From: Akkermansia sp.
GTDB taxonomy: Bacteria; Verrucomicrobiota; Verrucomicrobiia; Verrucomicrobiales; Akkermansiaceae
DNA length: 64,000 nt
Assembly (NCBI GenBank): GCA_017399165.1
Contig: JAFQEF010000109.1
Span: 1-64,000, forward strand
Direction: 5' to 3'
Numbering within the stretch: the stretch's first letter is position 1; every line of letters starts with the position of its first letter. The notes beneath the pieces are model-generated. The model made no database searches. It was not told the DNA's origin and saw only the letters and a list, made by a program, of their open reading frames with translations. Position numbers and translations under genes: made by a program. Shown here in pieces: positions 9,170 to 60,420 of the stretch.

Positions 9170-11251
9170 ATGTCACTCGAATCATTCTTCAATCCGAAGA
9201 GCATTGCCGTGGTTGGCGTATCCGCTGACCCCTCCAAGCTGGGCGCCGTTGTATTCAACAACATTATTGCTGCTGACTACAAGGGGAATCTTTATGGTGT
9301 AAACCCCAAGATGGCCGGTCAGGAGCTTTGCGGCAAGCCCTGTTATGCCAGCGTAGACACGCTGCCTGAGCCGATGGATTTGGTAGTAATCCTCGTGCCC
9401 GCTCGTTTCACGGAGCCCGTTGTAGATGCCTGCGTGGCCAATGGCACCAAGAATATCTCCATCATCACCGCCGGTTTTGCAGAGGTAGGTGAGAAAGAGC
9501 TCGAGAAGCGCATTGCTCAAAAGTGCCTGGATAACGGCATCAACCTGCTCGGGCCGAACTGCTTGGGCCACATCTCCACTTTCGACAACGTAAACGCCTC
9601 TTTCGCAGACGGTTTCCCTGCACGCGGTAACGTTGCCTTTGTATCTCAGTCCGGCGCATACTGCTCCGCCATCATGGACTGGGCAGCCGGCAAGGGTATC
9701 GGTTTCTCTCACTTCATCTCCATTGGTAACAAGGCCGTGATGGGTGAAGACGCTCTGCTTGCAGCCCTTAAGGATGACCCCAACACCAACGCTTTCGTAT
9801 TCTATCTTGAGTCCCTCAAGAACGGCAAGGAGTTCCTCAAGGTTATTAAAGAGGTATCCGACACCAAGCCCTGCGTTATCATGGAGCCCGGCAAGAGCGC
9901 CAAGGCCCAGGCCGCTTCTCTGTCTCACACGGGCTCTCTTGCCCCGAACTACCGCGTACTTGAGATGGCTCTGCAGGGTGCAGGCGCTATCCAAGCCTAC
10001 AACGACCGCGAGCTCTTCGGTTTGCTTGAGGTACTGCAATACTGCAACCACAACGAGTTTGACGGCCAGGTAGCCGTGTTGACCAACGCCGGTGGCGTGG
10101 GTGTGCTCACCTCCGACCTTTGCGAAGAGGCAGGTTTGGACCTTGCCCGCCCCAGCGAGAAGACCATTGAAGCCCTGCGCGCTGTGCTTACCCCCGAAGC
10201 TTCCCTCGGCAACCCGATTGACGTGGTGGGTGATGCCAAGGCAGATCGCTATGAGGCCGCCCTGCGCGTACTCTGCGAGAGCGGTGAGTACAAGAACATC
10301 CTTGTGCTGCTCACCCCGCAGCGTGTAACAGATTGCCCCGGCACTGCAGAGGCCGTTATCAAGCTGGCTCCTCAGTACCCCAATGTTAACATCTACTGCT
10401 CTTTCGTGGGTGGCGCCCGTGTGGATGAAGGCCGCGTTCTGCTCGACAAAGCCAAGATCCTCAACTACGAGTATCCCGCAGATATCGTGCGCCTGCTTGG
10501 CCTGCTGAAAGCTCAGATGGCTTTCCGCGGCAAGAAGCTTGCCACATGTGAGACCGGAGAGGTTCCCGCAGAGATTAAGGCAGCCGTTACCTCTGCCAAG
10601 GAAGCCGGCTTGGCCTCCCTGCCCCAGGAGACGGTTAACATGCTCATGGACCACTACGGCATTGATTATCCGAAGTGCGGTAACTTCACCGATAAGGAGG
10701 AAGCCCTTGCCTTCTGCAAGACCATCTTCCCGAACGCGGTGGTGCTCAAGCTTTCTGCTCCCGATGCCCTGCACAAGACCGAGATGAAGGGTATTTACCT
10801 CAACATTAATGATGAGGATTCCTTCACCGAGGCATGGGACGGCCTGTGGGGTTCCATCACCAAGTTCCAGCTCAAGGGAGCTTCCGTACTCATTCAAGAG
10901 ATGATTACCAAGGCCACCGAAACCATCATCGGTGTCAATAGCGACAAGAACTTCGGCCGCGTCATGGTATTCGGTACCGGTGGTATCTACACCGAGGTAA
11001 TGCGCGACACCACCATGCGCATCCTGCCCGCCAACGACTTCTCCGAGATGATTAAGGAGACCAAGGTAGGCACCATCCTTAACGGTGTACGTGGCGAGGC
11101 TCCCAAGGCTGTAGGCCCGCTGGCTGATACACTTGCCAAGGTGCAGAAACTTGTGCTCGAGATTCCCGAAATCACCGCTATCGACGGTAACCCCGTGCTG
11201 GTAACAGCTGACCGCGCCGTTGTGGTTGACTTCAAGATGATTCTCAAGTAA
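9170..11251 (+). CDS. acetate/acyl-CoA ligase (ADP-forming), fused alpha and beta subunits
   Basis: 693 residues from the ATG at 9170. Forms acetyl-CoA or other acyl-CoA reversibly with ADP/ATP, typically giving acetate plus ATP during fermentation. Domain order: CoA-binding Rossmann domain (about 5-125, FFNPKSIAVVGVSADP), succinyl-CoA-synthetase-like flavodoxin domains (about 145-460) and ATP-grasp domain (about 475-693, KLSAPDALHKTEMKGI). The catalytic phospho-His is H253 in SLSHTGSLAPN. The usual separate alpha and beta chains are one polypeptide here, as in many bacteria. Codon use is strongly biased, which fits high expression and creates a long antisense frame on the other strand. The frame stays open upstream to 8576, but the promoter and domain start support 9170. 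Confidence 0.92.
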   Translation: MSLESFFNPKSIAVVGVSADPSKLGAVVFNNIIAADYKGNLYGVNPKMAGQELCGKPCYASVDTLPEPMDLVVILVPARFTEPVVDACVANGTKNISIITAGFAEVGEKELEKRIAQKCLDNGINLLGPNCLGHISTFDNVNASFADGFPARGNVAFVSQSGAYCSAIMDWAAGKGIGFSHFISIGNKAVMGEDALLAALKDDPNTNAFVFYLESLKNGKEFLKVIKEVSDTKPCVIMEPGKSAKAQAASLSHTGSLAPNYRVLEMALQGAGAIQAYNDRELFGLLEVLQYCNHNEFDGQVAVLTNAGGVGVLTSDLCEEAGLDLARPSEKTIEALRAVLTPEASLGNPIDVVGDAKADRYEAALRVLCESGEYKNILVLLTPQRVTDCPGTAEAVIKLAPQYPNVNIYCSFVGGARVDEGRVLLDKAKILNYEYPADIVRLLGLLKAQMAFRGKKLATCETGEVPAEIKAAVTSAKEAGLASLPQETVNMLMDHYGIDYPKCGNFTDKEEALAFCKTIFPNAVVLKLSAPDALHKTEMKGIYLNINDEDSFTEAWDGLWGSITKFQLKGASVLIQEMITKATETIIGVNSDKNFGRVMVFGTGGIYTEVMRDTTMRILPANDFSEMIKETKVGTILNGVRGEAPKAVGPLADTLAKVQKLVLEIPEITAIDGNPVLVTADRAVVVDFKMILK

Positions 11252-11275
11252 GTCTTACTGACACACTTCTTCAAA

Positions 11276-11307
11276 GCCACGCTCCTTTTTCGGGGCGTGG
11301 CCTTTTC
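11276..11307 (+). terminator. intrinsic terminator after the acyl-CoA ligase gene
   Basis: Ten-pair stem GCCACGCTCC/GGGGCGTGGC (one G-U) followed by CTTTTCTT. The 160 bp that follow are AT-rich and hold only a weak candidate promoter (TTGCAT at 11416-11421). Confidence 0.85.
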
Positions 11308-11472
11308 TTACTAAAATTTTATAGAAAATTATAAATTCAGGCTCTTACAGCCCCGTTTTTTTAGTAAAATTTATAAAATTTTAGAATTTAATACAATGTA
11401 ATACACAAAAATTGCTTGCATTTTTGAGTAAAATAAGGCAGCATATCCCCCGGATTCAAGACAAAATTTAAA

Positions 11473-12960
11473 ATGAGCGGAAAAATCAAACTCGGCATCG
11501 TTCAAAGTGCCCCCCTCACAGCCGACCTCAGCCGCAATGTGCGACAAATCGTACAAGGCTATCGGGCCTGTTTAGAACGTGGTGCAAACCTCGTTATCGC
11601 CTCGGCTTATTCCCTGTGTGGCTCCGGTTTATTGGACCTTGCAGACCGCAACTCCTTTTTACAACAAACGGAAACGGCGATTGAATACTTATCTCAAGAG
11701 CTTGGCGATACACCGCTGTTACTGGGTGCATACGCCCCCATGCCCGGTCTGTTCCCCGTTGATATAGAAGATGACGAGGACGAGCTTTTTGACGCCTCCA
11801 TACCACAGCTTTATATACCCCGCCACGGTATAATTGTTCCGTTCTTGTTGGAGAACAACAGTGTAACCGAGCTGGAAAATGCGGATGTGGTAGATATTAA
11901 CGGATACTCCGTATATGTGGATGTAGACAATGAAACCGTTGTCATAGATGATTTGCAGCCCGACATTATTGTACACTTGCCCACGGAACCATGGCATGCA
12001 AAAGCTGCGCATACAGACGAGACAGAGCGCCGCTGGGAGGCAGACACCAACGGGGTACCCGTTGTTTGCGTGCGCCATGTAGGCACCTCCAACGGTGAGC
12101 TGTATGGCGGGGGCTCCGGCATTTATCTGCCGGGCAACTGCACACACACAAGGTTGCCTTTCTTTGAATCCGAGACCGAGGTGGTTTCCTTACATGACGC
12201 AGGTACAGCAAAAGCCCTGCCCGCTGATGATGAGCTGTTGGCTCAGGCCATTATAAGAGGCATACGAGACACTGTGAATAATAACCTCTATAATGGAGTA
12301 TGTATTCCGCTCGATGAGCCGGAATCCGCATTACTGGCAGCTCTTAGCGCCGAGGCTATGGGGACAAGCCATGTGCATGGTGTAACATTCTGTGGTAACA
12401 CTCATATTGCTGATGCGCTCAGCATTCATGCAACAAACCTGCAATTATCCACCCTGCCCGAGGAGCTGGCCAAGGCAGCCAATATCACCAAAACGGATAT
12501 TCTCAATGCCCGCTTGCAAAACACCCTGCTTACAACATACGCAGAGCAGAACGAACTAATGCCGTTGAGTGCCATTACTCGCCATGATTTAATGATGAAC
12601 AACTTTGTGCTGTACGGCAATGCGGGGGGCTATCTGGCACCCTTGGGTAACCTTTATTGCATGGATACCTACTTGCTCAGCAAGTATTTCAGCGAGAAAT
12701 ACGCCTCCTTGTTCGGCACGCTCAAAGAGCCCACTCACCCGGAGCAGGACCGTATCATTCATGAACTGGCAGACAAAAACATTGCAGCCAATCAATTGCT
12801 CAGTGATTATGTATGCCCCTTCAAAGAAAATGATGTAAGACAGGTACAGCGTCGTATCATCGCCTCTGCTCAAAAGCGTACACAAATTCCCACCGTGCTT
12901 TATGTGGATGAGGCAAGCCAAAGAAAAGCCTATCCGCATAACCATAGACTTAACGATTAA
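11473..12960 (+). CDS. degenerate glutamine-dependent NAD+ synthetase homologue, probable pseudoenzyme
   Basis: 495 residues with the two-domain layout of bacterial/eukaryotic NadE: an N-terminal nitrilase-like amidase (about 5-235) and a C-terminal NAD-synthetase domain (about 255-485). Landmarks align: VHLPTEPWHAKAAH for the usual NLSASPF stretch, GVPVVCVRHVG for GVPVVYVNQVG, ILNARLQNTLL for the IQARIRG helix and VLYGNAGGYLAPLGNLY for TLYGDMAGGFAPIGDLY. Catalytic parts are gone. The amidase Glu lies in a region now reading ASAYSLCG, and the Cys motif (ICEDLW-like) reads VYVDVDNE. The ATP pyrophosphatase loop SGGIDSA reads LDEPESAL (280-287), and the TTGNKSE motif is absent. It therefore should not make NAD. 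The frame is long and intact, so the protein probably has another role, for example binding NAD precursors or regulating a genuine NadE. Confidence 0.8.
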   Translation: MSGKIKLGIVQSAPLTADLSRNVRQIVQGYRACLERGANLVIASAYSLCGSGLLDLADRNSFLQQTETAIEYLSQELGDTPLLLGAYAPMPGLFPVDIEDDEDELFDASIPQLYIPRHGIIVPFLLENNSVTELENADVVDINGYSVYVDVDNETVVIDDLQPDIIVHLPTEPWHAKAAHTDETERRWEADTNGVPVVCVRHVGTSNGELYGGGSGIYLPGNCTHTRLPFFESETEVVSLHDAGTAKALPADDELLAQAIIRGIRDTVNNNLYNGVCIPLDEPESALLAALSAEAMGTSHVHGVTFCGNTHIADALSIHATNLQLSTLPEELAKAANITKTDILNARLQNTLLTTYAEQNELMPLSAITRHDLMMNNFVLYGNAGGYLAPLGNLYCMDTYLLSKYFSEKYASLFGTLKEPTHPEQDRIIHELADKNIAANQLLSDYVCPFKENDVRQVQRRIIASAQKRTQIPTVLYVDEASQRKAYPHNHRLND

Positions 12961-47430: not shown

Positions 47431-49377
47431 ATGATGGATAGCACTCTTCTTTCCACGCTCGAGCAGGCCGTTGCAGACGGCAAACTGCTTGCAACATCTC
47501 TTGAAAACATTCAACTGCTGCTGGCCGGCACGCAAGATCCCGTTGCCCCCGCAGCCATCAGCGAGCTTACCGCCGCAGGCGAGTGGGCTGAGTTGAACAA
47601 CCGTTTCTACAAAACACTGGCTTTTGGTACCGGTGGGCTGCGCGGACGCACCATCGGCATGGTCGTTGCCCCCTCTGAGCAAGGCAAAGGCGGTGTCAAT
47701 GGCCGCCCCGAGTTCCCCTGCGTGGGCACGGCATCCATGAACTACTTTAACGTAGGGCGTGCCATGCGTGGGCTCATCACCTATGTTCGCAGATTTGTAG
47801 AGGCAGAAGGCACCGGTCGCAAGCCCAAGATTGTAGTGGGGCATGATACGCGCCACTTCTCCCGAGACTTTGCAGAGTACTGCGCCAAGATTGCCACAGA
47901 TTTGGGCTGCGATTGCGCCCTGTTTGACGGCCCCTGCTCCACCCCCGAGGTTTCCTTTGCCATCCGCGAGCTGAATGCCGACACGGGTGTGGTGCTCACC
48001 GCCTCTCACAACCCTGCACACGACAACGGTTTCAAGGCATACTTTAATGACGGCGCGCAATTGATTGCCCCCCATGACAAAGCAGTGATTGCCGAGGTAA
48101 ACGCCCTGACGGGCGACACCTACGAGCCCCTGCCCGCAGACCAACAGGGTAAGCTGAGCATCCTTGGCCCCGAGTTTGATGCCATTTATATTGAAAAGCT
48201 CAAGGGTATTATTCTTCGCCCGGATGTCTTTGAAAAAGCAAGTGCTAAAGTGGTGTACACCAATCTGCACGGCACGGGTGGCCGCTGCATTGTGCCCATT
48301 CTCAAACAAATCGGCTGCAATGTCAGCACCGTAGCAGAGCAGGATGTGCTCGATGGGCGATTCCCCACAGTGGCCAGCCCCAACCCCGAGAACGCCCCTG
48401 CTCTCGACATGGCTATTGCTCAAGCAGATGCAGAGAATGCGGACTTGGTAATTGCCACGGATCCCGACAGCGACCGCATGGGCATTGCCGTGAGAGATAC
48501 CGCCACCGGCAAAATGCAACTGCTCACCGGCAACCAGACCGGCTGTCTTATGGCTTGGTACCGCTGCATGAGCGCCATAGAGCTGGGCATCATCACCCCG
48601 CAAAACATTGAGCACGCCGTCATGGTAAAAACCTTTGTGACCAGCCCCTTGCAAGATGCCATTGCCGCCTCCTTCGGCATCTCCACCGTCAATGTGCTCA
48701 CCGGCTTCAAGTACATTGCTGCCAAACTCGGCAAGTATGAGCAAGCCATACCCGCAGCAGAGCGTGTGGGCTACCGCAACATGACAGAGGCTCAAACTCG
48801 TGAGCTTCGCCTTAAGTACAGCAAATACTTCATCTTTGGCGGTGAAGAGAGCTACGGCTACCTGGCTCAGGATTTTGTGCGAGATAAGGATGCCAATGCC
48901 GCTGCTCTTTGCTTGGCAGAAATGAACGCCTACCTTGCCTCCAAGGGTATCGGCCTGCTGGAGTGCCTCAACAACATCTATACAGAGCTCGGCTATTACA
49001 TGGAGCTCGGTAAGAGCTTGGTTATGGAGGGCGCGGACGGTGCTGCCAAGATTGCAGCCCTTACCCAAAGTTACATGCAAAACCCGCCTGCCGAAATGGA
49101 CGGTGCCGCCGTGGTTGCCGTGCGAGACTTCTCCACCGGTACTCTTACCGATGCAGAGGGCGACCCCATCCCCGCAGAGAAGATGCTCTTTATTGACTTG
49201 GCAGATGGCCGCAGCTTTGCCGTGCGCCCCAGTGGCACAGAGCCCAAGATTAAATACTACCTCTTCGCTCACGGCGAAAAGGGCGCAGAGCTCTGCACCG
49301 CCAAGGCAACTGTGGAGACAGGCATTGCCTCCCTGTGGGCAGCTGTAGAGGCAGACGCCCGCACCCGCATGGCTTGA
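47431..49377 (+). CDS. phosphoglucomutase/phosphomannomutase family protein
   Basis: 648 residues from the ATG at 47431 (a second ATG follows at once). Alpha-D-phosphohexomutase fold: FGTGGLRGRTIG (about 68-79), phosphoserine loop TASHNPAHDNGFKAYF (about 190-205), metal loop ATDPDSDRMG (about 342-351), sugar loop GGEESYGYL (about 470-478) and phosphate-binding RPSGTEPKIKYY near the C-terminus. It interconverts hexose 1- and 6-phosphates. The large size resembles the long PGM2-like class rather than short ManB. It could provide mannose-1-phosphate to ManC or glucose-1-phosphate for glycogen. A 13-codon upstream extension is rejected because it covers the promoter. Terminator follows. Confidence 0.93.
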   Translation: MMDSTLLSTLEQAVADGKLLATSLENIQLLLAGTQDPVAPAAISELTAAGEWAELNNRFYKTLAFGTGGLRGRTIGMVVAPSEQGKGGVNGRPEFPCVGTASMNYFNVGRAMRGLITYVRRFVEAEGTGRKPKIVVGHDTRHFSRDFAEYCAKIATDLGCDCALFDGPCSTPEVSFAIRELNADTGVVLTASHNPAHDNGFKAYFNDGAQLIAPHDKAVIAEVNALTGDTYEPLPADQQGKLSILGPEFDAIYIEKLKGIILRPDVFEKASAKVVYTNLHGTGGRCIVPILKQIGCNVSTVAEQDVLDGRFPTVASPNPENAPALDMAIAQADAENADLVIATDPDSDRMGIAVRDTATGKMQLLTGNQTGCLMAWYRCMSAIELGIITPQNIEHAVMVKTFVTSPLQDAIAASFGISTVNVLTGFKYIAAKLGKYEQAIPAAERVGYRNMTEAQTRELRLKYSKYFIFGGEESYGYLAQDFVRDKDANAAALCLAEMNAYLASKGIGLLECLNNIYTELGYYMELGKSLVMEGADGAAKIAALTQSYMQNPPAEMDGAAVVAVRDFSTGTLTDAEGDPIPAEKMLFIDLADGRSFAVRPSGTEPKIKYYLFAHGEKGAELCTAKATVETGIASLWAAVEADARTRMA

Positions 49378-49541: not shown

Positions 49542-51047
49542 ATGATTACCGGAGACTTAAAAAATAAGGTTGATGCTATTTGGGACACCTTGTGGACAGG
49601 CGGTATCTCCAGCCCTATCACAGTGCTGGAGCAAATTACGTATTTGATGTTCATGAAGTTGCTGGATGATAACCAGCTCAGGGCGGAGGCAAATGCCAAT
49701 ATCCTCGGCGTGGAGTTGACCAATAAGGTGTTTGGTGACGGCATCTGCGTTATCAGCGAAACTCCCCGTATTGAAACAGATTATAAAAACCTGCGTTGGA
49801 GCATATTCCACAACTTTGAACCGACCGCCATGTTGGAAAACATCCGCAATTATGTTTTCCCCTTTATCAAAACGATTGGTCGGGGTAAAGATACGGCATT
49901 CAGCCGTTATATGAAGGACACCGTGTTCCTTATCCCCACCGGTGGCGTATTGGCAAAAGTGGTGGATGGCATTGATGCGCTGGACATGAACAACAAGGAC
50001 CTCATGGGCGATGTGTATGAGTACCTGCTCAGCAAAATTGCAGCCGCCGGAGAAAATGGGCAGTTCCGCACACCCCGCCATATCATTGAAATGATTGTTA
50101 AGCTCATGCAGCCCACCCTTCAAGATAAGATTCTGGACCCCGCCATGGGTAGTGCCGGTTTCTTGCAACAGAGTTGTGCTTATATTTGCAATAATCAACG
50201 TGCGGAGCTCATGAAAAGCAAAAACATGGCCTATTTCAAAACGGAGCTCTTCTCCGGTTATGATACGGACCAGTCCATGCTCCGCATTGGTGCCATGAAC
50301 ATGATGCTGCATGGGGTGGAGGAGCCCAATATCAAGTATCAGGACTCTTTATCAAAGGAAAATACAGAGAGAGATTGCTACACCCTTATCATGGCAAACC
50401 CGCCATTCAAGGGTAGTGTGTTCAAAGAGAATATCAGCAAGGATTTGACGGCGCTCTGCTCTACCACCAAGACGGAGCTGCTTTTCATGGCTCTCTTCAC
50501 CAAAATGCTCACCATCGGCGGGCGCTGCGCTTCCATCGTGCCCGAAGGGGTGCTTTTTGGCAGTTCAAAGGCGCACAAGGCTCTGCGCAAGGAGCTTGTG
50601 GAGAATCAGCAGCTGCGCGCCGTTATCTCCATGCCATCAGGGGTGTTTAAACCCTATGCCGGGGTATCAACCGCCATCCTCATTTTCACCCGCACAAATG
50701 CCGGCGGTACAGATAAGGTCTGGTTCTACGATATGAAGGCAGACGGCTACAGCCTCGATGATAAACGCACACCTATCGAACAGAACGATATCCCCGATGT
50801 TATCGCCCGTTTCTCGAACTTGGAGGCAGAAGAAAACCGTGAACGCACCGACCAAAGCTTCATGGTCTCCAAACAAGAAATTGTTGATAATGACTATGAC
50901 CTCAGCATCAATAAATACAAGAAAACAGTTTACGTGCCGATAGAATACCCCCCGTCCTCGGAAATTTTGGATAGCATTGAAGCCTTGGAATCGCAAATTC
51001 AAACAGAAATGGCTGAGTTGCGTAAGTTGCTGCAACAACAAATCTGA
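49542..51047 (+). CDS. hsdM: type I restriction-modification methyltransferase subunit HsdM
   Basis: 501 residues. N6-adenine methyltransferase of a type I system. The N-terminal helical HsdM domain (about 1-150, with EQITYLMFMKLLDD) is followed by the SAM-binding motif I DPAMGSAGFLQQS (about 200-212), catalytic motif IV NPPFKGS (about 285-291) and a C-terminal helix (LDSIEALESQIQTEMAELRK) that packs against HsdS. FRTPRHIIEMIV precedes motif I as in the family. Full length and intact. The hsdS start is 15 bases downstream. Confidence 0.96.
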   Translation: MITGDLKNKVDAIWDTLWTGGISSPITVLEQITYLMFMKLLDDNQLRAEANANILGVELTNKVFGDGICVISETPRIETDYKNLRWSIFHNFEPTAMLENIRNYVFPFIKTIGRGKDTAFSRYMKDTVFLIPTGGVLAKVVDGIDALDMNNKDLMGDVYEYLLSKIAAAGENGQFRTPRHIIEMIVKLMQPTLQDKILDPAMGSAGFLQQSCAYICNNQRAELMKSKNMAYFKTELFSGYDTDQSMLRIGAMNMMLHGVEEPNIKYQDSLSKENTERDCYTLIMANPPFKGSVFKENISKDLTALCSTTKTELLFMALFTKMLTIGGRCASIVPEGVLFGSSKAHKALRKELVENQQLRAVISMPSGVFKPYAGVSTAILIFTRTNAGGTDKVWFYDMKADGYSLDDKRTPIEQNDIPDVIARFSNLEAEENRERTDQSFMVSKQEIVDNDYDLSINKYKKTVYVPIEYPPSSEILDSIEALESQIQTEMAELRKLLQQQI

Positions 51048-51062: not shown

Positions 51063-52190
51063 ATGGCTCGTTACCGACTTGTTTCAATCTGTCAAATCAT
51101 TTCAGGAAGCACACCTAAAACAGGCGTGCAAGAGTATTGGAATGGCGACAAGAAGTGGATTACACCTGCTGAACTTTCTGAATCTGACTACATCATCTAT
51201 GATACAGAAAGAAAACTCACTGAGGCTGGCGTAAGATCAGCAGGGTTAACACCTCTTCCGAAAGGAACTGTTATCCTTTCTTCTAGGGCGCCCATTGGCA
51301 AGGTCGCTATTGCCGGGTGCGAGATGTATTGTAATCAAGGGTTCAAGAACTTTGTATGCTCAAATATAATCAACAACAAGTATTTGTATTGGTATTTGAG
51401 GAGCAAAACAGATTTTCTCAATTCGTTAGGAAGAGGAGCAACATTCAAGGAAATATCAAAATCGATTGTAGCAGATATTGAACTCGATATCCCCGAACTT
51501 TCAGAGCAGTCTAAAAGAGTTGCACATTTAGAAAAACTTCAGTCAATAATCACCAGCCGGCGGATTCAGCTTGCGAAGCTGGATGAGCTCGTCAAATGCC
51601 GATTTATCGAAATGTTTGGGGATCCTGTAGCCAATCCGATGGGCTGGGCAACAAAGAGCATGCATGAGGTCGCACCCCATAGCCCCATCGAAATTAAAAC
51701 TGAGGATAATGATATCTGGCTGTTAAATCTTGATAAAATTGAAAGCCATACCGGTCGTGTAACTGAATATGTTTATAATCGCCCTAATGAGATTGGAACT
51801 TCTACATGTGGGTTTGATAATCGACATGTCTTGTATTCTAAGCTCCGCCCCTACTTAAACAAGGTGGTTGTCCCTAATAAATCTGGTATGGCTACAAGCG
51901 AATTACTCGCGTTGCGTCCTAATGAAGCATTAAACCGAGAGTTCCTTGCGCATCTTTTACGTAGCGATAATTTTGTAGGTTACATATCAGAAAAAGTTGC
52001 GGGAGCTAAAATGCCAAGAGTGTCGATGGATATTTTTCGATCATTCCCCTGCATTCTGCCTCCAATGCCTATACAAAACACTTTTGCCGACTTCGTCCAT
52101 AGAATCGACAAATTACGCATTGTCATCCGGCAATCCTTGGATGAAGCGCAGAAGCTATTTGACAGTTTAATGCAGGAATATTTTGATTGA
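51063..52190 (+). CDS. hsdS: type I restriction-modification specificity subunit HsdS
   Basis: 375 residues, two target-recognition domains (about 1-150 and 190-340). These are separated and followed by the conserved helical spacers IITSRRIQLAKLDELVKCRF with EMFGDPVANPMGW, and RIDKLRIVIRQSLDEAQKLF at the C-terminus. The two half-sites define a bipartite DNA target that cannot be read from sequence. The first domain is AT-rich compared with hsdM, the usual sign of exchange between systems. A weak purine stretch (AGGGGT) precedes the ATG. There is no second hsdS or inverted copy nearby, so no sign of shuffling. Confidence 0.94.
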   Translation: MARYRLVSICQIISGSTPKTGVQEYWNGDKKWITPAELSESDYIIYDTERKLTEAGVRSAGLTPLPKGTVILSSRAPIGKVAIAGCEMYCNQGFKNFVCSNIINNKYLYWYLRSKTDFLNSLGRGATFKEISKSIVADIELDIPELSEQSKRVAHLEKLQSIITSRRIQLAKLDELVKCRFIEMFGDPVANPMGWATKSMHEVAPHSPIEIKTEDNDIWLLNLDKIESHTGRVTEYVYNRPNEIGTSTCGFDNRHVLYSKLRPYLNKVVVPNKSGMATSELLALRPNEALNREFLAHLLRSDNFVGYISEKVAGAKMPRVSMDIFRSFPCILPPMPIQNTFADFVHRIDKLRIVIRQSLDEAQKLFDSLMQEYFD

Positions 52191-52248: not shown

Positions 52249-53400
52249 ATGGATGAGCTCAGTAATTATGATAGTGCGGTGCAAGTTATCAAGAGAGTCA
52301 TCTTGCAGCATCAGGTACAAGCTGCGCGGCAAGTGAATGCGGTACAGCTTGCGCTTTATTATAGTGTGGGTCAGTATATATCCGCCCATTCCCGGACCGC
52401 TCAATGGGGTAAGGGCGCTATAGATTACATTAGCCGACGGTTGCAGGAACAGTTGCCCGGGTTGAGGGGCTTTTCCTCTGCCAATATCAAATTAATGCGC
52501 ACTTTTTATGAAGAGTGGAGTCCCCAAACGTTGACCCAACTCTTTCATGGTAAAAATGAGCAAAGCAAGAGAGCTCAATCGTTTACTAATTCGCCAGTCG
52601 CGACTAGCGAATTAGAATGGCTACAAAAAAGTGACATTTTTGCAGTTACATTAGGGCTGACGCTTGAGGAGTTTCAGGCGGTATCTTTTACGCACCATAG
52701 CGTGATATTGCGAGAAGTCAAAGACGTTGCAGAGCGCGCTTACTATGTGCGGCTAAGCGCAACGGAACAGCTCAGCGTAACCCGACTGAAGTCCGCAATA
52801 GCCAACGATACGTACCGACACCGGGGGCAGATGCCGAATAATTTTGTACAGACGCTCAGTGACTCACGCTCCGCATTGAAAGCCGTAGAAATGTTCCGCG
52901 ATGAGTATCTGCTGGACTTCATCAATGTGGAAGAACTTGGCGCGAGAGACAAAGAAGATATTGACGAGCGGGTGCTGGAGAATGCCATTGTACACAACAT
53001 ACGAGATTTTATCATGACCTTTGGCCGGGATTTCGCCTTCATGGGCAATCAATACCGCATCGAAGCGCATGGCAAGGAGCATTTTATAGATTTGTTGTTC
53101 TATAACCGTGAGCTTTCTGCGCTCGTGGCTATTGAGCTGAAAACCGGGCCATTCAAGGCTGCGTATCTGGGGCAGTTGAATATGTACCTGCAATTGCTGG
53201 ATGATTATGTGCGTAAGCCGCAGGAGAACCCAAGCATAGGGATTATACTGTGCACTGATGCAGAAAAGCCTTATGTAGAATATGCGGTGCGAGACTATGC
53301 CAAACCGATGGGGGTGGCGGTATACAAGACCCGGGATGAAATGCCGGAGAAGCTGCGCCGCGCACTACCCAGCATGGAAGACTTGCGAAAATTCTTGTAA
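52249..53400 (+). CDS. YhcG/DUF1016 family PDDEXK nuclease-domain protein
   Basis: 383 residues. The N-terminal DUF1016 helical domain (about 10-170, ALYYSVGQYISAHSRTAQWG, LPGLRGFSSANIKLMRTFYE) and C-terminal PD-(D/E)xK nuclease-like domain (about 225-370) match YhcG proteins. The nuclease site reads FIDLLFYNRELSALVAIELKTG, with the Asp and the ExK present. Members often sit inside type I restriction loci, as here between hsdS and hsdR; their role is not settled. The gene has its own promoter and a Shine-Dalgarno site, so it may be expressed apart from hsdM and hsdS. Confidence 0.9.
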   Translation: MDELSNYDSAVQVIKRVILQHQVQAARQVNAVQLALYYSVGQYISAHSRTAQWGKGAIDYISRRLQEQLPGLRGFSSANIKLMRTFYEEWSPQTLTQLFHGKNEQSKRAQSFTNSPVATSELEWLQKSDIFAVTLGLTLEEFQAVSFTHHSVILREVKDVAERAYYVRLSATEQLSVTRLKSAIANDTYRHRGQMPNNFVQTLSDSRSALKAVEMFRDEYLLDFINVEELGARDKEDIDERVLENAIVHNIRDFIMTFGRDFAFMGNQYRIEAHGKEHFIDLLFYNRELSALVAIELKTGPFKAAYLGQLNMYLQLLDDYVRKPQENPSIGIILCTDAEKPYVEYAVRDYAKPMGVAVYKTRDEMPEKLRRALPSMEDLRKFL

Positions 53401-53417
53401 CAAACTTCTCTACACCT

Positions 53418-56400
53418 ATGAATCGGGAAGCGGTACAAACCAAGCTCACGCAAATACGCTCTGCGGCAAAAGCCGGAGACAAGGCACGATTGAGCCGGGA
53501 AATGCTCAAAGAACTCGTGGAGGGTGTCTATCTGTATCTCAACATCAGGCTCCCTAAAAAAGCTACCTTGCTTGAGTTGATAGACAACTCGGCAGTAGTC
53601 GACTTTGTCAACGATGCAGATGTGATGCAAGCCATGCATTATGTGCGCATTCTGGGTATGAATGCAGAGCATGAAGTGCGCATACGCAAGGCAGAAGCTC
53701 AACTTGCTATTGAGAATATTTCGGCTATAGCTGAACTCATAAGACATCGCGAGAGTACGCCAAATATCCCCTATAAAAAGCCTCCCTACATGAGCGAGGC
53801 AAATACCCGAAAATTGTACATTGATTTGTACCTGAGAGAGGCGGGATGGGAAGTACTTGAAACAGACAATGTTGCGCAACCGAGCAAAGCCGGAATTGAA
53901 ATTGCGGTAGAGGGCATGCCCAATGCAACAGGCTTGGGGTATTGTGACTATGTACTATACGGGCGAGATGGGAAGCCACTTGCTATAGTGGAAGCCAAGA
54001 GGACAGCCGTATCCCCGGAGAAAGGTCGGCACCAAGTGGATTTGTATGGTGAATGCATGAAAAAGCGCTATGGCTACAAGCCGGTGCTCTATTACACCAA
54101 CGGCTATACCACCAAGATAATGGATGGCCTGTACCCGGACAGGCAAGTGCTGGCCTTTCATACGCAAGAAGAGTTGGAGCTGATGCTCCATAAAAGAGGA
54201 CGCGCCGATATAACGGATTTTACCATTAACGATGAAATCACGAATCGACCTTACCAGAAAATAGCCATTACTCGACTTTGCGAGAAACTTAACAAAAAGC
54301 ATCGGCGAGGCTTGCTGGTGATGGCAACAGGAACGGGTAAAACGAGAGTATCCATTTCATTGGTCGATATTTTGACACGCAACAACTGGGTCAAGAACGT
54401 GCTTTTTTTAGCGGACCGCACCAGCCTGGTGCATCAGGCCAAGCAGAATTATGCCAAGCTCATGCCGAATACGAGCATCTGCGAATTGTCCGGCAGGGAG
54501 GAGCCGGACTACAATGCCCGCCTGATGTTCAGCACTTACCAGACAATGATTAACTACATTGATGCTGAGGATAAGCGGTTCAAGTCCGGGCGTTTTGACC
54601 TTATTATCATTGATGAGGCTCATCGCAGCATCTTCAACCGCTATGGTTCCATTTTCAAATATTTCGATAGCTTGCTCGTGGGGCTAACGGCTACCCCCAA
54701 GAATGAGGTGGATGCAAATACTTACAGTCTGTTTGCCTGTGAATCCGGCATGCCTGATTCAGATTATTCCTTAGAAGAAGCCATTGATGAACATTATCTG
54801 GTGGGGTACAAAGTCATTAACCAAACCTCTTTTTTGATTTCCGAGGGCATAGACCCGAGTAAATTGACACCGGATGAACGGGAACAGCTGGATGATTATT
54901 TTGCCGAGAGGCGTTTACCCACACCGGACCTTAATGTTCCGGGTAACGAATTATTCCGCTTTCTGTTCAATAAGAACACTTGCCGTCAGGTTATCGAAAA
55001 GTTGATGACGCAGGGCTTGAAAGTCAACAATGGAGAAACACTCGGTAAAAGCATCATCTTTGCGTACAATCACAAGCATGCTCAAATGATAGTGGAGAGT
55101 TTCCATGAGCTGTACCCGAATCATCCTGCCAACACCTGCCAATTGGTTGATAATTATGTGCAAAATGCCGATAGCCTGATAGAACAATTTGACACGAACC
55201 CGGAGTTCCGCATTGCTGTATCGGTGGATATGCTGGATACGGGTGTGGATATTCCGGCGGTACTGAATCTGGTATTCTTCAAGAAGGTGCGTTCCAAAAT
55301 AAAGTTTGTGCAGATGATTGGACGTGGTACGCGCTTGTGTGAAAACATCTATGGCCCGGGCCGACATAAGAGAGGCTTCTGCATTTTTGATTATTGTGCC
55401 AATTTTGAGTATTTCGGGAATTTGCCTGAGGGTAAGCCCGCTCAAGGTAATCAACTGAGTTTGACGCAACGACTCTACACCATGCAAGCTGATATGCTTT
55501 ATGGTTTGCAAGATATACAGTATCAAGAAGACGAATGGTTTAAGGGATATTACGAAGAACTCAAGAAGAATCTGCATCGTCAAATAGGAGTCATCAAATC
55601 CCATAGCAATCGAATACAGGTACGTGCAGAAATGCAATATGTAGATAAGTTCTACGATTGGGAGAACTGGACGGCTCTTACCCCTGTGGCATTGCAGGAG
55701 CTGAGAAAACATATCGTCCCATTATTGGACTCCGGTATTCAGGGGCATCCTCTTTCCCTTGCATTTGATTGTCGTATGTTGCATGTGGCATTGTCTCTTG
55801 TATGTAATGGCAACGTGAAAGGAGCAGGTAAGGATGTGAAGAAAATACGTGAGGTTGCGAACTACCTGCTTACAGAAAAAGCATCCATTCCGCAAGTGCT
55901 CGCAAAAGCATCTGACTTGAAACTGATTGTGGATAGCAACTTCTGGCAAGCCCCCGCTGTGCCGGAGCTGGAGCGTTTGCGACAAAGTCTGCGAGATTTA
56001 ATGCAGTTCCTTCAGGGTGAGAGGCGTGCACGGTACGATATTGATATTCAGGATGAAATTACTGACGGGGAGTATGAGCCGGGGAACACTATTATCGATA
56101 TCCGCACCTATCGGGAAAAAGTGATTGATTACCTGATGGAAAATATCAACAGCCGGGTAATTAGTAAGATTCATAACCTTGACCCCATTAACGAGGACGA
56201 CTTATTGGAACTTGAGCGCATTCTATGGCACGAACTGGGCAGCAAAGAAGATTATGCTAAAATCAGCGACCACAAAAATTTGGCGGCTTTTGTGAGAAGC
56301 TTGGTAGGACTTAATCAAAACGCCATCAATGAGAAGTTCAGTGAATATCTGAATGATAACACATTCAACGCCATGCAGCAGGAATACATACGCACGATTA

Positions 56401-56621
56401 TTAACTATGTGCGTGTAAACGGCGATATGGATAGAAGTGATGTGGTGAATACTGAACCATTCAATAATTATGATATTGTAGACCTTTTCGGCTCCAGATA
56501 TCAAGCTGTCATTCAGATAGTTCACAAACTTCATGCGCCCATAGAGGTTCCGATTGCATTTGAATACCCTGATGATGAAGAACATACTTTATCTATAGCA
56601 GACTCCGGTGAGAAACAATAA
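53418..56621 (+). CDS. hsdR: type I restriction endonuclease subunit HsdR
   Basis: 1067 residues. Motor and nuclease of the type I complex. The N-terminal PD-(D/E)xK nuclease has GYCDYVLYGRDGKPLAIVEAKR (acidic residues and EAK, about 173-195, split here by key residues D and E-A-K). The SF2 translocase has Walker A MATGTGKTRVS (about 300), DEAH box IIIDEAHRSIF (about 396), LVGLTATPKNE (motif III) and MIGRGTRLCE (motif VI). The helical C-terminal part contacts HsdM. Full length with no frameshift, so the locus is probably active. It starts 17 bases after the yhcG-like gene and may share its promoter. Confidence 0.96.
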   Translation: MNREAVQTKLTQIRSAAKAGDKARLSREMLKELVEGVYLYLNIRLPKKATLLELIDNSAVVDFVNDADVMQAMHYVRILGMNAEHEVRIRKAEAQLAIENISAIAELIRHRESTPNIPYKKPPYMSEANTRKLYIDLYLREAGWEVLETDNVAQPSKAGIEIAVEGMPNATGLGYCDYVLYGRDGKPLAIVEAKRTAVSPEKGRHQVDLYGECMKKRYGYKPVLYYTNGYTTKIMDGLYPDRQVLAFHTQEELELMLHKRGRADITDFTINDEITNRPYQKIAITRLCEKLNKKHRRGLLVMATGTGKTRVSISLVDILTRNNWVKNVLFLADRTSLVHQAKQNYAKLMPNTSICELSGREEPDYNARLMFSTYQTMINYIDAEDKRFKSGRFDLIIIDEAHRSIFNRYGSIFKYFDSLLVGLTATPKNEVDANTYSLFACESGMPDSDYSLEEAIDEHYLVGYKVINQTSFLISEGIDPSKLTPDEREQLDDYFAERRLPTPDLNVPGNELFRFLFNKNTCRQVIEKLMTQGLKVNNGETLGKSIIFAYNHKHAQMIVESFHELYPNHPANTCQLVDNYVQNADSLIEQFDTNPEFRIAVSVDMLDTGVDIPAVLNLVFFKKVRSKIKFVQMIGRGTRLCENIYGPGRHKRGFCIFDYCANFEYFGNLPEGKPAQGNQLSLTQRLYTMQADMLYGLQDIQYQEDEWFKGYYEELKKNLHRQIGVIKSHSNRIQVRAEMQYVDKFYDWENWTALTPVALQELRKHIVPLLDSGIQGHPLSLAFDCRMLHVALSLVCNGNVKGAGKDVKKIREVANYLLTEKASIPQVLAKASDLKLIVDSNFWQAPAVPELERLRQSLRDLMQFLQGERRARYDIDIQDEITDGEYEPGNTIIDIRTYREKVIDYLMENINSRVISKIHNLDPINEDDLLELERILWHELGSKEDYAKISDHKNLAAFVRSLVGLNQNAINEKFSEYLNDNTFNAMQQEYIRTIINYVRVNGDMDRSDVVNTEPFNNYDIVDLFGSRYQAVIQIVHKLHAPIEVPIAFEYPDDEEHTLSIADSGEKQ

Positions 56622-56638: not shown

Positions 56639-57247
56639 ATGAAATACCCATTTATCATCATAGCAGTCACATTATTGCTGAGCAACTGCCGCAGTTATTT
56701 TGCGCACAATGTTATCAGTAATGCAAAATACGAGGCATATTGCGACACGGCTGATATTAAGTCCAATGCGAATCAAGTCATTATCAGCGACGGTAAAAAT
56801 TATTATATGGAGCTGCCGCGTTACCGTTGGAAACAAAGGAGCATAGATTTCATGGAAGGTGTGGGTGGCAAGCTCCGTACAGGAGAAAGACTTGTTGCCG
56901 TACCGGGTGAAAAAGATTTATATAAGCTACCTGCCAACTATGCGCGTTATCTGACAGGTCAAAGTAAAATTAAACCTAAAGAGGTTGTTTTAGAATACGT
57001 GGCAGATCAAGAGGCCGTACGCTCTCGCTGCAAAACGGAGCTTGCCGTAACAAGAGAATGTGATAGGGGCAGAGCGGGTCAGTTTACATATACATCCCCC
57101 TATGCCGGGCTTTACAAAGCACTGGGCTACCCGCTATATGCCGTGGATATTCCTTTATCCATAGCCGGGAATGCCTGTATGGTAGGGTGCATAGCCATCG
57201 GCGGTACCATTGCCATCATTTGTTACCCCATTGCTGCCTGTTTTTAA
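56639..57247 (+). CDS. putative lipoprotein, first of a tandem pair
   Basis: 202 residues. Signal MKYPFIIIAVTLLLSNC with Cys 17 as a possible lipid site (Asn before Cys is unusual). It shares with the next gene the motifs ISDGKNYYMELPRYR, KDLYKLPANYARYLTGQSK and YTSPYAGLYKALGYPLYAVD, so the two are diverged tandem duplicates. The C-terminal 35 residues are hydrophobic (ACMVGCIAIGGTIAIICYPI). No known family. It lies 17 bases after hsdR and could be read from that transcript. Confidence 0.75.
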   Translation: MKYPFIIIAVTLLLSNCRSYFAHNVISNAKYEAYCDTADIKSNANQVIISDGKNYYMELPRYRWKQRSIDFMEGVGGKLRTGERLVAVPGEKDLYKLPANYARYLTGQSKIKPKEVVLEYVADQEAVRSRCKTELAVTRECDRGRAGQFTYTSPYAGLYKALGYPLYAVDIPLSIAGNACMVGCIAIGGTIAIICYPIAACF

Positions 57248-57250
57248 CAG

Positions 57251-57928
57251 ATGAAACATCTACTTTACACCTTGATCTTATGCAGTTTGGCGTTACCAAG
57301 CTGCATTACGCATGTGTCAGATGCCTTTTTCGACAAAGCGGAGTATCAGGCATCTGCCGACACTTCGCTCATCGCCCCCGATAAAGGCTCTTATCTGCTC
57401 TCCGATGGTAAAAATTACTATATCGAGCTGCAACGTATAAGAAAGGACAACAGGCCTGATTCATCAGATTACGGGTGCTTGCAAGGTATGGCTTATTACA
57501 GTCTCCGAGATGAAAAAATCAGCGGCGTTAAGGATTTATACGCTGTACCCAAGCCGTATGCGCTCTACCTTGTGGGTAAAAGTAAGTATGCTGATAAAGA
57601 AAGAAAACTCACCTTTATAGAAAATGCCGAAGAAATTAAAGCCAAGTGTACAACAAAGCTCCCCATACGGAGTGAAACGGCATACAACAATTGTTACATA
57701 AGCCCGAGAACCGTAACCTCACCCCACGCCGCCACTTATAATGCTTTGGGGTATACCACAGCCGTGGTGGTGGATGTACCGTTGAGCTGCGTGGGTACCG
57801 CCATGGCCACCGTATTTAATGCCATTGTATGGCCGGTCCGGTTCATCATATCCCCCTCAAATGCAGCAAATGATTTTGCCGCAGATTTCGGCAGCCATTC
57901 TTTGCGGCGCTTTCTTGAGCTCAGATAA
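57251..57928 (+). CDS. putative lipoprotein, second of a tandem pair
   Basis: 225 residues. Lipoprotein signal MKHLLYTLILCSLALPSC, lipid Cys at 18. Counterpart motifs to the upstream gene are LSDGKNYYIELQRIR, KDLYAVPKPYALYLVGKSK and VTSPHAATYNALGYTTAVVVD. The end differs: a hydrophobic stretch and then a polar tail of about 25 residues. Function unknown. Start three bases after the upstream stop. Both seem to be envelope proteins of a family I do not recognise. Confidence 0.75.
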   Translation: MKHLLYTLILCSLALPSCITHVSDAFFDKAEYQASADTSLIAPDKGSYLLSDGKNYYIELQRIRKDNRPDSSDYGCLQGMAYYSLRDEKISGVKDLYAVPKPYALYLVGKSKYADKERKLTFIENAEEIKAKCTTKLPIRSETAYNNCYISPRTVTSPHAATYNALGYTTAVVVDVPLSCVGTAMATVFNAIVWPVRFIISPSNAANDFAADFGSHSLRRFLELR

Positions 57929-57985: not shown

Positions 57986-59191
57986 ATGCAAACCATGAGT
58001 AGCATCTTTTCCCCATCCCATTACCGTATTCACTTTGTTATCATCTTTTTGCTGGTCAGCTTTAATCTGCGCATGTGCTTTTCAGCGGCGGATCCGTTGC
58101 TGGTATTCCTGATGCGGGATTTGGGGCTGAGTGTGAGCAGCAGTGGCATGTTCGGGCTTTTGCCTATTATATCGTTGGGGGTAGCAGCCCCGCTCGGAGC
58201 CGTCCTGACACGGCATATACGCCCGCGCATACTCATTATCTATTCTTTAGTATGGGCAATAGCCGGCGTAGTATGGCGAAGCTACGGCGGCATTACGGGA
58301 TTATTCGGCGGCACCATCGTGATAGGGTTGGGGCTTGGCATTGCGGGCTCCGTCATTCTGGGTATCGGCAAGCAAGTAGTGCCGGATCGCCTACCGGAAC
58401 TGATGAGTGCCTACACCGCCTGTGTAAGCCTGGGCACAGCAGTGGGAGCAGGCGCAGCCGCCCCCATGGCCCTGCTGCTGGGGGGCTGGCAGAAGGGGCT
58501 GCTCTTTTGGGGGCTGCCCTTGCTGATAGCCACCATGCTTTGGGCAGAGTTGGTATGCCGTGTGCGCCCAAGCACCATGCAACAGCACACGCTCAAAACA
58601 CCCATGCTGCCACTGCTCAAGCAACATAAAGCCCGCATGGTTACTCTTTTTTATTTATTCCGTGTAGCCGGGGCGTGGCTGTTGATTGTGTGGTTATCCA
58701 CCCTGCTGCGGGACCGCGGCATGCCGTTAGTGGAGGCCGGGTTGGTATTATCGGTAGCCACGGCGTTTCAAATACCGGCCGCCCTGCTCTCCGACATCTT
58801 CAGTCGGTGGGTAGGAGGTATGGATAAACTGATAATCTTTGCCGTGCTAGCCTCTATAGCAGCCTGCTGGGGACTATTAGAGGCCCCCCTGCACTTTTGG
58901 CTTGTTTTCGCCATCATGCTGGGTGCAGGTTTAGGCTGTATTTTTTCCATAGGCATGACACTGATAGTGGAAAGCGAACCGGATGAAGCCGGCACTGTTG
59001 CGTTATCCGGCATGGCGCAAGGCATAGGGTTCACCTGTGGCGGGCTGCTGGCTTGGGTGGCGGGCATGTGCATGCAATGGCAACACCGAGACTTGTGGAT
59101 GGGCAGTATCTACACCCTGCTGGCTCTATCAGGGTTAGTATGTGGGCTTCAAGCCTTGAGAAAACAAACGATAAACGAGAAGAATGCTTGA
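57986..59191 (+). CDS. MFS transporter, CynX/NimT-like
   Basis: About 12 membrane helices in 401 residues. N-terminal region FNLRMCFSAADPLLVFLMRD and SSGMFGLLPIISLGVAAPLG resembles the CynX/NimT (cyanate/nitroimidazole-type) exporters of the major facilitator superfamily. ATG codons at 57986 and 57995 are both possible; TTGCAA (57954) with a 17-bp spacer to TAAAAG lies upstream, not convincing. Substrate unknown. The stop precedes lpxK by 32 bases, with the lpxK promoter overlapping the 3' end. Confidence 0.82.
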   Translation: MQTMSSIFSPSHYRIHFVIIFLLVSFNLRMCFSAADPLLVFLMRDLGLSVSSSGMFGLLPIISLGVAAPLGAVLTRHIRPRILIIYSLVWAIAGVVWRSYGGITGLFGGTIVIGLGLGIAGSVILGIGKQVVPDRLPELMSAYTACVSLGTAVGAGAAAPMALLLGGWQKGLLFWGLPLLIATMLWAELVCRVRPSTMQQHTLKTPMLPLLKQHKARMVTLFYLFRVAGAWLLIVWLSTLLRDRGMPLVEAGLVLSVATAFQIPAALLSDIFSRWVGGMDKLIIFAVLASIAACWGLLEAPLHFWLVFAIMLGAGLGCIFSIGMTLIVESEPDEAGTVALSGMAQGIGFTCGGLLAWVAGMCMQWQHRDLWMGSIYTLLALSGLVCGLQALRKQTINEKNA

Positions 59192-59223: not shown

Positions 59224-60420
59224 ATGAAATCACGCATGGATGAGTTTGCAGAATGGGGAACCGAAGTAGTGTTCGGGCGCGCCCATGGGTTCCGTGCGTG
59301 GATGATGCGCTGTGTGTTGCGCTTTGCCTCGTTCTTTTTCTACCTGTTGGTTAAAACACGTTTATTTTTATTCTCTCGCCGCATCAAAACCGTACGCTAT
59401 TTAGGCACTTTTGTTATCAGCGTGGGCAACATCACGGCAGGCGGCACCGGTAAAACCCCCGTGGTGGAGTTTCTCTCACGCGCGTTATCTGCCCGTGGCC
59501 GCAAATGCGCCATTTTAACGCGCGGTTACAAGAGCGAGCCACTTGATGAGCCGCAGGAGTGGTTGGATGCCGAGGGTAATCCGGTAAAAGACTTGCCTAA
59601 AATAGCCAGCGATGGTGTTACCCGCTATCTGAGCCCCCTATACGCGGGTGACGAGCCGTTTATGTTGGCTCGCAACTTGGATGGCGTGTCTGTACTGGTG
59701 GATAAAGACCGCGTTAAATCCGGTATATTCGCCATAGAACAGCTGGGCTGCAACACCCTGATACTGGATGACGGTATGCAGTATCTGAAACTCAAGCACG
59801 AGATTGATATTGTGCTGGTGGACTGCGGATTTCCCTTCGGCACGGGGTCTCTGTTGCCGCGCGGCACCATGCGAGAGCCCCGCACCAGCCTTGCCCGCGC
59901 CAGCTACATCATCCTGACCAAGAGCGGTGGTAAACCGCAGGATGAGCTCATTGCCACGATTCGCAAATATAACAAGGTGGCAGATATTATTGTAACCAAT
60001 CACGCCCCTGCCCATTTGGAAAACATCTTTACGGGAGAACGCAAGCCCCTGAGTTTCCTCAAGGATAAATACGTGGCCTGTATGAGCGGCATTGCCCGCC
60101 CCGAAAGTTTTGAAGGCTTGGTAGAAGGCTTGGGGGCCCATGTGGAGATACGCCGCCGCTACCCCGACCACTATTGGTTTGACCAAAAAGACCTGGAAAC
60201 CTTTGTAGAGCGTTGCGCCGACCGCGCTATGGATTTGATTGTCACCACGGAAAAAGACGCCGTACGATTCCTCAAACCCGGAGAAATGGAGGTGCCCATC
60301 TACTTCCTGCGCATTCAAATTGACATTGAACAGGGGCAGGAGTATTGGGACCGCATGATAGACCGCATTTGTGCCCTAGGCGAGCCCCAGCCCCCGCACC
60401 AGTGGAGCGACGCCCTGTAA
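59224..60420 (+). CDS. lpxK: tetraacyldisaccharide 4'-kinase
   Basis: 398 residues. Phosphorylates the lipid A precursor at the inner membrane, so the cell makes lipopolysaccharide or lipooligosaccharide. An N-terminal amphipathic or membrane-associated segment (about 20-50) is followed by the P-loop [20 protein letters not shown] (about 67-86), ILTRGYKS and [18 protein letters not shown] (about 180-197). Family length is usually 310-340, so this one is somewhat long. Convergent with comEC, ten bases apart. Confidence 0.94.

Follow-up and report, generated by a model that had tools for sequence, protein, structure and literature searches.

Two adjacent genes in an Akkermansia genome are the members through which a real, unnamed, genus-restricted superfamily of lipoproteins is seen. 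The anatomy of these proteins, the existence of the superfamily and the independence of the pair from the type I restriction locus that precedes it are, taken jointly, held with high confidence. The explanation as a whole, in which membrane-docked envelope lipoproteins were diversified by old duplication, is one towards which we lean slightly. The window, that is, the whole stretch of 64,000 nucleotides that was analysed, corresponds to contig C106 in a genome of 2.76 Mb with a completeness of 99.96%.

The gene pair and its superfamily

The initial annotation had described two neighbouring genes on one strand behind hsdR, read them as lipoproteins and noticed three blocks common to both. The two open reading frames were confirmed, and so was the gap of 17 nt between the hsdR stop at 56621 and the first ATG at 56639. 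The genes are called here lipA and lipB (our own names) and are separated by 3 nt. Their features are as follows.

56639..57247, + strand: lipA, 202-aa lipoprotein, first gene of the pair; ATG 17 nt after the hsdR stop
56687..56689, + strand: lipobox Cys codon of lipA (LLSNC); Cys column invariant in 30/30 relatives
56786..56806, + strand: SDGKNYY block of lipA
56912..56968, + strand: KDLY..P..YA.YL.G.SK block of lipA
57092..57160, + strand: TSP.A..Y.ALGY...VDxPLS block of lipA; VDxP Asp and Pro invariant in 30/30
57251..57928, + strand: lipB, 225-aa lipoprotein, second gene of the pair; 3 nt after the lipA stop
57302..57304, + strand: lipobox Cys codon of lipB (ALPSC); Cys column invariant in 30/30 relatives
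57401..57421, + strand: SDGKNYY block of lipB
57530..57586, + strand: KDLY..P..YA.YL.G.SK block of lipB
57716..57787, + strand: TSP.A..Y.ALGY...VDxPLS block of lipB; VDxP Asp and Pro invariant in 30/30
57728..57850, + strand: hydrophobic C-terminal helix of lipB (model residues 160-200), from AlphaFold2 (mean pLDDT 79.6) and hydropathy

Over 200 aligned columns the two proteins are 34% identical (E=6e-31), and all three blocks are found among the invariant columns. When the whole genome was searched, the sole close relative of lipA was lipB and vice versa, the match of about 1e-27 being far beyond chance. In the tree, for which the programme warned of joined long branches, lipA pairs with one gene of G365 (support 93/90) and lipB groups with genes of G319, G192 and G365 (support 89/81). 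Because each gene groups separately with genes of those species, the split between lipA and lipB predates G365, G319 and G192, and the old tandem duplication proposed at the outset is supported by these sequence comparisons. Both N-termini carry a signal peptide and a lipobox (LLSNC in lipA, ALPSC in lipB), by which the proteins fit the definition of predicted bacterial lipoproteins (SPase II substrates), in agreement with the first reading of the pair.

Scans of Pfam, NCBIfam, PHROGs and PADLOC matched neither protein significantly, in line with the earlier remark that no known family was recognised. PADLOC-DB 2.0.0 gave no match to lipA or lipB at E ≤ 1e-3, and the sole PHROG match of lipA fell on its signal-peptide end (E 0.08). 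Profile searches, the kind of check put forward in the initial annotation, led to no named family in Pfam or NCBIfam, and a large superfamily of their own emerged. With lipB as the query, matches were found in 24 of the 386 genomes of the order sample, all of them of the window's genus. The close-family profile reached additional ORFs in the rest of the window genome, about 200-260 aa in length, and many more were recovered with a wide alignment (A3). The profile A4, from an alignment of 23 own-genome members with their signal peptides removed, matched 26 ORFs in the fetched loci of the window genome at E ≤ 1e-3 and none of 1551 reversed ORFs; since the profiles include rows of the window pair or of its genome, the E-values are circular for those rows. 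An independent comparison, in which a profile of 21 own-genome members that excludes the pair was aligned with the mature region of the close family, covered 43 N-terminal columns with P 97.3 and E 2.3e-11, the reversed-profile controls giving P 1.3-1.4. On the evidence of these profiles, lipA and lipB are a small part of a large genus-restricted superfamily.

Across the genus, A4 matched 60 of 76 genomes, with 38 matches in G319, 28 each in the window genome and G291, 27 in G073 and 26 in G312; the superfamily was not detected in the other 16, which are mostly larger ones (14 of them of 2.7-3.5 Mb). With at most eight candidates scored per genome, matches were found in 51 of the 386 genomes of the order sample, all in one of 50 genera and none in the 49 others, and in 12 of the 387 genomes of the phylum sample, 11 of them inside the genus. 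The number of matches drops with distance from the window genome, and part of this gradient may be lost detection, the profile being from that genome. With its many paralogues in one lineage, the superfamily is a lineage-specific expanded lipoprotein family, and arrays of diverse lipoproteins are seen at G319:C35, G000:C67 and G000:C84. The only match outside the genus, a weak one (E 6e-6), belongs to another family of the phylum (G520:C50:25210-25656, in L194).

A signal-peptide leader, ILATTALCLAAVGLSSC, is conserved as DNA at nine sites of the window's own genome, with a mean pairwise identity of 0.67 over the 75-nt leader; the value falls to 0.29 over the 60 nt before it and to 0.27 over the 75 nt after it. 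The sites are located in L195 (six sites), L197, L204 and L206 of G000, and the leader is also present in L068 (G319) and L073 (G391). Four of the nine belong to superfamily members and five to lipoproteins outside the profile, as if leaders had been exchanged between lipoproteins by recombination. Fic and Schlafen AlbA_2 proteins (L195:7384-8475, 10996-12465) share a 13.6-kb contig with leader-sharing lipoproteins. In two genomes, a hydrophobic protein of 193-226 aa lies beside superfamily lipoproteins (G000, L197:11554-12135; G319, L068:1697-2287 and 4269-4949), and the G000 copy has no Pfam match.

Protein anatomy and proposed role

The lipobox Cys and the Asp and Pro of VDxP are invariant in all 30 proteins of the close-family alignment. 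In the wider superfamily the lipobox pattern is kept by 23 of the 26 own-genome ORFs, the exceptions (L111, L120, L119) being truncated or atypical. AlphaFold2 models of lipB (pLDDT 79.6) and of a distant member, the G000:C89 protein (pLDDT 81.3), present their elements in a like order: a short helix, strands, long strands and one long C-terminal helix, which spans residues 160-200 in the former and 142-184 in the latter (41 and 43 residues). The common anatomy, as shown by sequence or by model, consists of the lipobox, a beta-rich domain and a hydrophobic C-terminal helix of about 40 residues with VDxP. The hydropathy of this helix is only borderline for a transmembrane segment, with best 19-residue means of about 1.4-2.2, and therefore its insertion into the membrane is not secure. 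A cytoplasmic tail behind a transmembrane helix is disfavoured, the residues that follow the helix being mostly acidic or neutral and not basic. The core comprises about 190 residues, and the tails vary: none, short polar, Ser-rich, long helical-looking, ankyrin, CxxCxGxG zinc-type or strings of Asp/His/Cys. The ankyrin, zinc-type and Asp/His/Cys tails are carried by one branch. When the 30 relatives were scanned singly with Pfam, significant matches fell only in tails (ankyrin repeats, n=2; DnaJ_CXXCXGXG, n=2).

Searches of the PDB with the models of lipB and the distant member gave no Foldseek match at E ≤ 0.001 and best VIA-align matches of Z 3.5 (rmsd 4.5, 45 residues) and Z 2.2 (rmsd 5.7, 82 residues), results that refer to the match lists, so that a fold family outside those lists could still fit. 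The sequence-profile search of the PDB gave no significant match (best E 0.31).

The mechanism that we propose starts from lipidation, which would hold the protein at the membrane. The C-terminal helix would be placed in or against the same membrane or pack onto a partner. The beta domain would face the periplasm or the outside and could recognise a ligand or partner that varies from one paralogue to the next. In one branch, the variable tails may serve as added binding modules. The copies would have been produced by duplication, with subsequent divergence under weak purifying selection. Such an envelope role in the binding of a ligand or partner is proposed tentatively and with some doubt; the neighbour genes of family members gave no significant clue to function. 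A broader picture, speculative and rather unlikely, would be a modular envelope-display system of one gut genus, with a constant VDxP-helix core, interchangeable C-terminal modules (ankyrin, zinc, Asp/His/Cys) and a DNA-conserved leader common to unrelated lipoproteins, in which the paralogues present different binding surfaces to host, phage or competitor.

The rate of change was analysed between the window genome and its sister G312, where the orthologues of 17 own members are 92.6-98.4% identical. Pairs were reciprocal best matches with at least 60% identity and at least 80 codons, by which 17 of the 26 own family ORFs were retained, together with 69 neighbour pairs, 67 of them with a defined ratio. 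The median dN/dS was 0.287 for the family and 0.091 for the neighbours (Mann-Whitney p=1e-4), ORFs being picked by length alone and some neighbour pairs probably not being genes (e.g. L207:3916-4389). The ratio exceeds 1 in none of the 17 family pairs; below 1 and above that of the neighbours, it indicates therefore that the genes are kept by selection and evolve more rapidly than the genes around them. This rate varies within the family, three of the 17 pairs having values of 0.13 or lower. Both lipA and lipB, with 5 and 9 amino-acid changes, have a ratio of 0.48, compared with 0.03-0.05 for pgm, the MFS transporter gene and lpxK.

Fast evolution and arrays of diverse lipoproteins, such as the three mentioned above, would also suit immunity proteins of an interbacterial toxin system, that is, lipoproteins that neutralise incoming effectors. 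Sel1- and ankyrin-repeat genes recurrently adjoin family members, and excerpts of PMC3482391 place such repeats in polymorphic toxin and immunity loci. However, no toxin gene was seen next to the pair, and in a crude motif test neither Sel1 (3/156 near the family vs 1/463, p=0.05) nor Sel1 or Ank (5/156 vs 6/463, p=0.16) was significantly enriched. Moreover, immunity genes are expected to be less stable between sister genomes than 92.6-98.4% identity, so that the 17 members with G312 orthologues are steadier than such a function predicts, and we regard it as quite unlikely.

A still less probable function is that of metal-handling lipoproteins, with the core as a scaffold and tails that bind metal. 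Asp/His/Cys-rich ends were recognised by eye in 8 of the 30 aligned members (L019, L023-L027, L029, L033), and two members match the DnaJ CxxCxGxG zinc module, but lipA, lipB and the other members located after pgm have no such tails, the tailed ones being on other branches. A remote membership in the YceK/YidQ (DUF1375) lipoprotein family is equally improbable. Both YceK and YidQ have a lipobox and a C-terminal D-x-P-F motif, and PF07119 was touched by 3 of the 30 relatives, although the best E of 0.038 is under the curated cut-off and the own genome gave no PF07119 match at E ≤ 1. In the comparison of profiles, 16 columns aligned with P 1.4, no higher than a reversed control, the DUF1375 side comprising only two sequences, and YceK has just 75 aa.

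The slot after pgm and the restriction locus

Both lipA and lipB reside in a variable slot after pgm, where one lineage also carries a type I locus. The other genes of this region of the window are the following.

47431..49377, + strand: pgm (phosphoglucomutase/phosphomannomutase), left border of the slot; Pfam PGM_PMM_I-IV; in 75/76 genus genomes
49542..51047, + strand: hsdM, type I methyltransferase; slot occurrence restricted to the window genome and G312
51063..52190, + strand: hsdS, specificity subunit, within the type I locus
52249..53400, + strand: YhcG (DUF1016) nuclease gene, inside the type I locus
53418..56621, + strand: hsdR, restriction subunit, directly upstream of lipA
57986..59191, + strand: MFS transporter, which closes the slot on the right in the nearest relatives
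59224..60420, + strand: lpxK, right flank

The window genome and G312 share the order pgm, hsdM, hsdS, yhcG, hsdR, lipA, lipB, MFS and lpxK. Eighteen relatives were compared. Seventeen come from the top 18 by pgm score, with G374 omitted, and G387 was added for its lpxK near pgm; contig ends fall inside the slot in some of the 18 (G362, G242, G192). The display used for the relatives covered 6 kb, and the lipoproteins of G312, which lie farther out, were placed from a separate comparison. A family gene follows pgm in five of the 18 (G319, G060, G192, G365, G312), and restriction genes are present in the slot in one of these five, G312. In G319, pgm is followed by an ankyrin-type gene, a lipB-like gene, MFS and lpxK, and in G192 by a family gene and MFS; in G060 a family gene comes after pgm, and in G365 a family gene on the opposite strand. 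G342 has pgm, an ankyrin-type gene, MFS and lpxK. All the family genes of the slot form one clade with support 100/100, which includes one G365 gene from another contig. Ankyrin-type genes occur in the slot after pgm in several relatives: L080 (G319), L163 (G342) and L164 (G371, by eye).

The pair had been suspected of accompanying the restriction locus as accessory or passenger genes. In four relatives (G319, G060, G192, G365), lipoproteins of the same clade are found at this position with no restriction genes there, and therefore this reading fails; nor does the pair travel with type I systems, four of the five relatives with a family gene in the slot having none there. The refuting observation named in the initial annotation, occurrence in all relatives without the restriction genes, is borne out in part, for those four and not for all. 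Among the loci compared, the hsdM, hsdS and hsdR of the window had matches at E ≤ 1e-10, a search that detects similar subunits only, just at the G312 locus (L006 and shorter copies), and PADLOC, as stated, matches neither lipoprotein. It is thus very improbable that the pair belongs to the type I locus as genes co-transcribed with hsdR and maintained with it, in spite of the common strand, the gap of 17 nt with no promoter-like or terminator-like site in it, the same arrangement in G312, and a truncated family ORF (G000:C63:72414) that adjoins a YhcG-type nuclease gene with another hsdM on the same stretch. The scan for promoters and terminators found no more sites than in shuffles, and co-transcription of hsdR and lipA may in itself occur. 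The link of the lipoproteins to the restriction locus looks positional, a coincidence of location, and a later arrival of the locus is a simpler reading than several losses, although simplicity is no proof.

Within the type I locus, the hsdS of the window (51063-52190) is 63.5% identical to the G312 copy (L006:3781-4947), hsdM, yhcG and hsdR being above 97%, which is a sign of specificity exchange. In G312, hsdR falls into two reading frames at about L006:7626 and may be broken or misassembled; the window copy is intact. In L197 (G000:C63:66000-79569) the N-terminally truncated superfamily ORF, whose G312 orthologue is longer, has another hsdM and a gene for a YhcG-type nuclease close by.

Significance and comparison with known systems

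An estimated 1% or so of the genes of the window genome (26 ORFs in 2.76 Mb) belongs to this unnamed envelope superfamily. If it faces host, phage or competitors, the superfamily could serve to tell lineages apart within a genus that is under medical attention. The case is also a warning that adjacency to a restriction locus is a poor guide to function. No published description of the lipoprotein family was found in a search that covered few subscription journals and no preprints, and the word 'lipoprotein' is absent from the excerpts of PMC10540074. The kind, a lineage-specific expanded lipoprotein family, is already known, and this particular family seems to be undescribed.

The type I restriction-modification locus with YhcG (PDC-S02 in PADLOC) is the immediate upstream neighbour of the pair in the window and in G312, but the lipoproteins are also found in the slot without such a locus. 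The YceK/YidQ proteins (DUF1375, PF07119) resemble the pair in being small envelope lipoproteins with a lipobox and an Asp-x-Pro in a hydrophobic C-terminal segment, whereas their 75-110 aa leave no room for the beta domain. Staphylococcal tandem lipoproteins and the Borrelia Mlp proteins are examples of lineage-specific expanded lipoprotein families, and with families of this kind the superfamily shares its many diverged paralogues, its tandem arrays and its confinement to one lineage. The searches gave no sequence or fold match to a described family, and the superfamily differs from those of its kind in its VDxP helix and its variable tails.
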